Shown piece by piece: positions 1 through 38,448 of a stretch of DNA of 38,448 bases. The position numbers and the translations under genes were made by a program. Origin of the DNA: Spirochaetota bacterium (lineage in GTDB: Bacteria; Spirochaetota; B62-G9; DRHN01); contig CP070841.1 in assembly GCA_020342115.1 (NCBI GenBank), forward strand, positions 1,770,282 through 1,808,729, read 5' to 3'. The notes below the pieces were generated by a model. That model searched no databases and was not told the DNA's origin. It saw nothing but the letters and a program-made list of their open reading frames with translations. How positions within the stretch are numbered: position 1 is the stretch's first letter; each line of letters starts with the position of its first letter.

Positions 1-208
1 AAGGCAATATTTTTAAAAGTGGCTGTCTCCGTCTAAATGAAATTAATTAACGTTTAATAGAGTGTCTTTCACATTTAGACGTGTAAGGCAATATTTTTAA
101 AAGTGGCTGTCTCCGTCTAAATGAAATTAATTAACGTTTAATAGAGTGTCTTTCACATTTAGACGTGTAAGGCAATATTTTTAAAAGTGGCTGTCTCCGT
201 CTAAATGA
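1..208. repeat. Tandem array of 84-bp palindrome-bearing units (left end)
   Basis: Two full 84-bp copies (1-84, 85-168) and a third that stops at about 208 are essentially identical. Each unit holds the 10-bp arms CGTCTAAATG and CATTTAGACG, perfect reverse complements, separated by 32 bp; the next unit's first arm follows after another 32 bp. Arms of alternating orientation therefore recur every 42 bp, about four helical turns. The array runs off the left edge, so its full length is unknown. It ends 18 bp before the start codon of the MinD-like gene. A diverged version of the same unit lies at the right end of the window. Confidence 0.95.
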
Positions 209-226
209 TATACACAGGCAGAATGT

Positions 227-1357
227 ATGGTAATCAATGAGAATGTGAAGAAAAAGATAATACCGGTAGCAAGCGGAAAGGGCGGAGTCGGGAAAACCAT
301 AATAGCAGCAAATCTGGCCCTGGCATTGGCGGCTGAAGGTAAGAAAAGTACGATTGTGGATCTTGATCTGGGGGGATCTAACCTCCATACGTGCCTTGGA
401 TTGAAGAACATAAGCCCGGGAGTTGGCAATTTTCTGTCAGGAAAGGGTTTAGCTTTTAAGGATATAGTGCAAAAAACACCTTATCCTCACCTTCAGCTCA
501 TTCCTGGTGACGTTCTTGTTGCAGGTCTTACAAATCTGTCTCTCTCTCAGAAAAAGAGAATCATGCTACATATAGTAAAACTCGATTCCGATTATGTTAT
601 CATAGATCTTGGTTCAGGAGCACACTCTACAGTTATAGATTTCTTTCTCATATCTAACTCGGGGTTTGTGGTGACTACGCCCCAGGCTACATCTATAGTG
701 AATACCTACAATTTTCTGAAGAACCTCATGTTCCGTTTTTTTCAGAGGGCTCTTTCACCCTACCCTAATGCTTCTGAGTATCTTCGAGACCTTCTTAGAG
801 AACAGAGTCCGAACTCAACACCGACAATCTCTCAGATCGTTGCTGCAATAGAGAGTAAGAATAGTGAAGCCGGACAGAAAGCAAAGCGATATCTTTCGGC
901 GCTGCACCCCAAGCTCATCATTAATCTCGCAGACTCCCCTGACAATGTATATATCAGCGGACAATTGAGAGATCTAATTAAGAGAAACCTCGAGATTGAA
1001 GTAGAATGTATGGGACTTATTTACAATGATAAAACTGTTAAGACGTCTGTTTCAGAATCCGTGCCTCTCTTAAAGTATGACTCTGAATGTCTTGCATCTC
1101 GTTCTATAGTGAGGATTGCTAAGAAGATCCTCCAGTCGGAGCGATTCCCTGTAATGTCGCTGGAGGGTGAACAGTACAAGGATAGCTTTGAGCTGACCAT
1201 GATTGAAGCTCAGAACGATTATGAAGAATCAGTCGTAAAAGCACAGGATAAGGAAAAGCCGGATATCGGTGAGCTCATTTCGCTCATCAGTAATCAAAAA
1301 CAGCAGATCAATGAGCTGAGAGGGACTGTTCGTATGCTGACAATGAAGACCCAATAG
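227..1357 (+). CDS. MinD/ParA-family P-loop ATPase with C-terminal extension
   Basis: This is a cytoplasmic SIMIBI-class ATPase. The deviant Walker A box GKGGVGKT lies at about residues 17-24, the second conserved aspartate motif follows in VDLDLGG, and Walker B is in VIIDLGSG. Family members (MinD, ParA, FlhG, Mrp) position division sites, chromosomes or flagella by switching ATP-dependently on membrane or DNA. At 376 aa it is about 100 residues longer than MinD, and the C-terminus (about 330-376) looks coiled-coil. No MinE, ParB or FlhF gene is visible, so the cargo is unknown. A J-domain gene follows 36 bp downstream on the same strand, which suggests an operon. The ATG has only a weak ribosome site, and a tandem array ends 18 bp upstream, so the promoter must lie within or beyond the array. 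Confidence 0.85.
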   Translation: MVINENVKKKIIPVASGKGGVGKTIIAANLALALAAEGKKSTIVDLDLGGSNLHTCLGLKNISPGVGNFLSGKGLAFKDIVQKTPYPHLQLIPGDVLVAGLTNLSLSQKKRIMLHIVKLDSDYVIIDLGSGAHSTVIDFFLISNSGFVVTTPQATSIVNTYNFLKNLMFRFFQRALSPYPNASEYLRDLLREQSPNSTPTISQIVAAIESKNSEAGQKAKRYLSALHPKLIINLADSPDNVYISGQLRDLIKRNLEIEVECMGLIYNDKTVKTSVSESVPLLKYDSECLASRSIVRIAKKILQSERFPVMSLEGEQYKDSFELTMIEAQNDYEESVVKAQDKEKPDIGELISLISNQKQQINELRGTVRMLTMKTQ

Positions 1358-38190: not shown

Positions 38191-38255
38191 AGAGCATACT
38201 TATTTCCGAGAATTTTCAAATCCCTGATATAAAATAAGCATACAACAAATTGTCA

Positions 38256-38448
38256 TCTAAATGTAGGTAGGTAACCTTTAACAGAGCGGTATTCACATTT
38301 AGACGGAATGGATAAACTTTATAAGAAGCGTCTTTCTCCGTCTAAATGTAGGTAGGTAACCTTTAACAGAGCGGTATTCACATTTAGACGGAATGGATAA
38401 ACTTTATAAGAAGCGTCTTTCTCCGTCTAAATGTAGGTAGGTAACCTT
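38256..38448. repeat. Tandem array of 85-bp palindrome-bearing units (right end)
   Basis: Copies start at 38256, 38341 and 38426, giving a period of 85 bp, and the array runs off the window. Each unit has the same 10-bp arms as the left array (CGTCTAAATG, CATTTAGACG) 32 bp apart, with 33 bp to the next unit. The first arm at the boundary is degenerate (TCATCTAAATG). The 32 bp inside the arms match the left array at 21 positions by eye, and CTCCGTCTAAATG and TTCACATTTAGACG are identical in both. The two arrays share orientation. Confidence 0.95.

Follow-up and report, generated by a model that had tools for sequence, protein, structure and literature searches.

The tandem array at the left end of the analysed window, a scaffolded stretch of 38,448 bp from a 3.53-Mb spirochaete genome (G000, C1:1770282-1808729), is best explained, with moderate confidence, as one locus of a dispersed, intergenic and hairpin-forming satellite family, which resembles REP and BIME repeats and was probably once mobilised in trans. 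Five 10-bp arms, at 30-39 (CGTCTAAATG), 72-81 (CATTTAGACG), 114-123, 156-165 and 198-207, alternate between these two orientations, with gaps of exactly 32 bp and an arm-to-arm step of exactly 42 bp, confirming between 30 and 207 the evenly spaced, alternating half-sites of the original prediction. Over positions 1-208, Tandem Repeats Finder returned a period of 84 bp, with 2.5 copies and 100% matches. Since a scaffold gap of 100 N directly precedes base 1, the array is truncated, and 2.5 head-to-tail units are present on the minus strand (1..208, read from 207 down to 1). Unit 1 consists of an A hairpin (156..207), in which CATTTAGACG and CGTCTAAATG surround a 32-bp spacer and are predicted to form a 10-bp stem in single-stranded DNA, and of a 32-bp B linker (124..155). 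The A hairpin and the B linker of unit 2 (72..123 and 40..71) are identical to those of unit 1, the same fold being predicted for the former, whereas unit 3 is a truncated A hairpin (1..39) with its arm at 30-39. The neighbouring gene, on the plus strand and outside the element, encodes a ParA/MinD-like P-loop ATPase of 376 aa (227..1357), with 19 bp between the last arm and its ATG at 227. Another array of this family, absent from the original prediction and cut by the contig end, occupies the right end of the window (38254..38448, minus strand), with arms at 38254, 38296, 38339, 38381 and 38424.

The same pattern is found throughout the genome. CATTTAGAYG-N31-34-CRTCTAAATG has 87 exact occurrences in the 3.53 Mb and its reversed control has none, and therefore the pattern is not due to chance. 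A covariance model of the unit, termed R1, gave 140 matches in the G000 genome, which in some cases include matches on both strands to one unit, and the family amounts to about 120 units at roughly 60 places. To describe the unit we dissected 45 arrays from 40 stretches (610 kb including the window), chosen mostly around pattern matches; later stretches, beyond these 45 arrays, held decayed monomers and more arrays. The unit is polar, namely, CATTTAGAYG-A-CRTCTAAATG-B, and about 85 bp long. The spacing of approximately 42 bp, which was to be checked genome-wide, holds across the family loci. The 32-bp gaps described on both sides of each arm are exact in the array at 1-208; genome-wide, A is usually 33 bp and B 32 bp, with a period of 84-86 bp. 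Units follow each other head to tail, from one to six per array, closing with B-CATT(T), and monomers are frequent.

The two ends of the arrays behave differently. The 33 clean left ends that we tabulated, using arms with at most two mismatches, a criterion that favours conserved ends, start at the '<' arm, and on the right 36 of 37 arrays finish with CATT, past which conservation falls to background, near random. The left-end 4-mers vary (TATT, AATT, CCTT, CAAT, GATT) where the right end stays CATT, and thus there is no locus-specific target duplication. A few arrays (451109, 975846, 1390935, 2337971 and the right array of the window) have differently phased ends.

Pairing between arms points to a hairpin across A. 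First, at arm base 9 the combinations with the partner across A were T-A in 59 cases, C-G in 23, T-G in 2 and C-A in none, while across B the same position was looser, namely, A-T 38, G-C 13, A-C 7, G-T 4 and G-G 1. Second, in an alignment of 57 units the base-9 pair had 12 both-side changes, where shuffling gave a mean of 2.9 over the entire stem, and the whole-stem covariation score, whose strength comes mainly from one stem position, exceeded 500 of 500 shuffles. Third, at least two distinct A-spacer backgrounds are associated with CG arms (e.g. in the window and in L078), and one unit (L188 4292-4341; G000:3198291), a perfect 21-bp hairpin or palindrome with an 8-nt loop, has arm base 7 changed on both sides. 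Since related units are not independent, we take this covariation as support for a hairpin across A, not as proof. The A halves of the window are predicted to fold as single-stranded DNA (z -3.7), unlike B (z 0.1), and the folded single strand that had been envisaged as an alternative is supported for the A half. The spacers themselves have a symmetric consensus and no internal covariation. A long 85-bp hairpin centred on CRTCTAAATG was considered and rejected, its paired cells not being above independence.

Coding sequence makes up 79% of the sample, yet each of the 45 dissected arrays is intergenic, with overlaps of a few bp, and once of 46 bp, at naive ORF ends; the location inside genes that would have counted against a binding array was not what we found. 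With a stricter ORF cut, divergent regions contain 14 arrays, against a length-based expectation of 8.9, convergent regions 4 (6.8 expected) and co-directional regions 24 (26.4 expected); in the last, array and gene strands are split 12:12, with no preference. The promoter bias is at most mild, too weak for an operator role. From the intergenic location, this strand split and the mild bias together, the arrays do not look like a set of operators, terminators or leader RNAs. A transcribed regulatory RNA or attenuator in gene leaders, in particular, seems to us highly improbable: the A half is a predicted hairpin and the window array precedes a start codon at short distance, but both orientations relative to genes are equally frequent, and neither a terminator-like site near the window array nor an Rfam match in the window was found. 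The neighbours of the arrays are genes of all kinds, and no ParA/MinD link was seen beyond the window in an unsystematic inspection; that the window array directly precedes a ParA gene is, in all likelihood, a coincidence.

In a search of 393 genomes from the phylum, R1 matched G000 and G002 only, under strict filters with which weak matches may be lost. As G002 belongs to another genus of the same family as G000, the repeats are thus found in two genera of one family. In the G002 arrays, arms, 42-bp alternation and CATT end are all retained and the spacers have diverged; the arm spacing stays at 41-44 bp in both genera. For the genes beside G002 arrays that have a homologue in the G000 sample, which are few, none matched genes beside G000 arrays. 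Exact arms are absent from the sampled parts of G001 (148 kb) and G005 (129 kb), two members of the same family, and viral, phage or plasmid contigs gave no match. G001 has a 41/83-bp two-level tandem repeat of its own, without these arms (L208 7012-7213), which may represent either a coding repeat or a comparable satellite. A pattern match in Tannerellaceae (L035) looks like chance, as its spacer matches neither of the two spacer types.

A repeat copy was also found in CP070825 (L038 1-1786; 136-138 kb), a record labelled Candidatus Aminicenantes. Its flank has 98.8% identity to G000 over 1,176 bp, and the gene beside it is 99% identical to G000:1479929-1480618; nothing similarly close turned up in 20 other genomes from the Aminicenantes phylum. 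On these grounds horizontal transfer to Aminicenantes was rejected; judging from these identities, the contig most likely comes from this species or one closely related to it, a probable mis-binning within a public chromosome-level MAG. This contig, the only strain-level homologue, provides no empty site, as homology ends before the array.

Pairwise identity is 0.91 for the central arm and 0.58 for the spacers, a difference that might also reflect selective pressure at a bound site. Given such strongly conserved arms and a spacing of 41-44 bp, a helical-phase reading is possible, in which a cooperative protein binding double-stranded DNA (a nucleoid organiser, partition protein or global regulator) would occupy a phased array, its dimers sitting on the quasi-palindromic arms, CRTYTARAYG, and possibly on TTTAAA centres midway, along one helix face. 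We regard this alternative as fairly unlikely and as weaker than the satellite. It is consistent with near-invariant arms among diverging spacers, with a spacing retained between two genera despite strongly divergent spacers, with the symmetry of the spacer consensus without covariation, which fits protein half-sites, and with the excess of arrays in divergent intergenic regions. It does not account for the fixed polar ends and the many monomers, nor for a difference in covariation, clean at A and loose at B, between two gaps that would be equivalent in a duplex array; moreover, the promoter bias is weak and without strand preference, and the comparable genes beside the arrays differ between the two genomes. 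Similarly, parS-type partition arrays form one or a few clustered loci beside parAB, near oriC, unlike the roughly 60 dispersed loci found here. A dedicated cooperative-binding array or partition site, as originally suggested, is therefore unsupported, in view of this number of loci, their mixed neighbours and their confinement to two genera, together with the monomers, polar ends and lack of strand preference.

Units from different arrays share a mean identity of 0.66, and neighbouring units from 0.61 to 1.00, with at least 0.95 in 11 of 45. Owing to this broad range, the arrays look as if assembled from distinct copies as well as enlarged by local duplication. Near-identical neighbours in many arrays would also be expected from a passive satellite, growing only by slippage and recombination and spreading by rare segmental duplication, with its hairpin arms kept perfect by template-switch repair, and with neither transposase nor function. 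Quasi-palindrome correction could yield arm covariation as well. Dispersed intergenic satellites have been reported in another spirochaete, Leptospira interrogans (PMC6749651). Yet roughly 60 dispersed loci that share their unit boundaries but not their flanks are difficult to explain without a process that defines these boundaries, and we consider a purely passive origin improbable.

The favoured mobilised satellite would instead work as follows. The unit of about 85 bp comprises a 52-bp imperfect hairpin, formed by the arms around spacer A, and a linker B of about 33 bp ending in CATT(T). Single units would have been spread by a hairpin-recognising, single-strand transposase of the Y1/HUH type acting in trans, with insertion beside a CATT-like target and no duplication of that target. 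With the same CATT at the end of every unit, later copies could land directly behind earlier ones, stacking by self-targeting, after which slippage or recombination would multiply units locally. The 42-bp rhythm would then stem from the geometry of hairpin plus linker, and not from selection for helical phase. In a more specific version of this scheme, put forward tentatively, the unit's own right-end CATT would recreate the target, so that copies stack head to tail, and the driving enzyme, acting in trans, would be a domesticated single-copy Y1 protein retained by both genera.

IS200/IS605-type elements insert without target duplication. The fixed ends, the lack of such a duplication, the hairpin beside a recurring tetranucleotide and the right-end CATT resemble Y1/HUH elements and REPs in their logic; with the ends of IS200/IS605-type elements (Y1 HUH) the family shares a short cleavage or target motif adjacent to a hairpin (PMC6006769). 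No autonomous element with these repeat ends was found, and Y1 cleavage at CATT is putative. Y1_Tnp proteins are encoded in G000 (three), G002 (five) and G003 (one), with a sub-threshold fragment in G004 and none in G001, G005, G006 and G007. Two reciprocal-best pairs, of 50% and 53% identity, link G000 with G002, and their G000 members are single-copy Y1 transposase-like proteins of 294 codons (G000:74061-74943, L192) and 303 codons (G000:1548634-1549543, L194). Shared by the two genera, these two proteins are candidate mobilising enzymes for the repeat family, but a lead only, because no Y1 gene is flanked by repeats: no arms lie within 1.5 kb at up to one mismatch, nor convincing arm pairs at up to two mismatches, unlike GTAG-type REP/RAYT loci. 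It also speaks against Y1 mobilisation that a crude local GC-skew proxy gave no lagging-strand or other replication-strand bias (31/60).

With respect to known systems, BIMEs and REPs are, in the account drawn on here, many intergenic palindromic units with regular spacing and alternating orientation, single or clustered (PMC2817692), and the REP hairpin adjoins a short conserved tetranucleotide (PMC6006769). The present repeats are likewise palindromic, alternating, regularly spaced and intergenic at many loci, and so share the BIME-like mosaic of REPs with RAYT (TnpA_REP). However, GTAG REPs and REPtrons have a stem of 7-20 bp, a short loop of 2-20 nt, a GTAG or GTGG foot and a repeat-flanked Y1 transposase gene, whereas here the foot is CATT/TTTAG, the loop is of about 32 nt, the unit is larger (85 bp) and there is no such gene. 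CGTC-tagged REPs, known from five phyla including Spirochaetes and comprising the Neisseria dRS3/NIME clusters (PMC3733652), are similar in their short stems, in having no dedicated transposase and in their clustering (theirs in Neisseria). Their CGTC tag, however, is unpaired, the stem has 8-9 bp and the loop 4-5 nt, and a CCA tail follows; in our family CGTC is part of the paired stem and is replaced by CATC in most copies, and the loop is again of about 32 nt. The dispersed non-coding satellites of L. interrogans, tandem repeats of tens of bp between genes that were read as transposed satellites (PMC6749651), share the spirochaete host, the tandem organisation and the intergenic scatter, but their listed units are of 37, 46 and 69 nt, as opposed to about 85 bp. 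Unlike in CRISPR, with its identical direct repeats and unique spacers, the repeats alternate in orientation, and the spacers recur within arrays and are alike between arrays.

Based on these comparisons, the family is a lineage-restricted new variant among dispersed intergenic palindromic or satellite repeats, being neither a GTAG nor a CGTC REP. In practice, these arrays disrupt assembly: an array arm is found within 100 bp of 19 of the 61 scaffold gaps (L057-L096), in a sample chosen around arrays. Dispersed satellites have been reported as rare in bacteria (PMC6749651), and a family that combines precisely defined unit ends with tandem growth and an enzyme that may act in trans would permit a direct test of satellite transposition.
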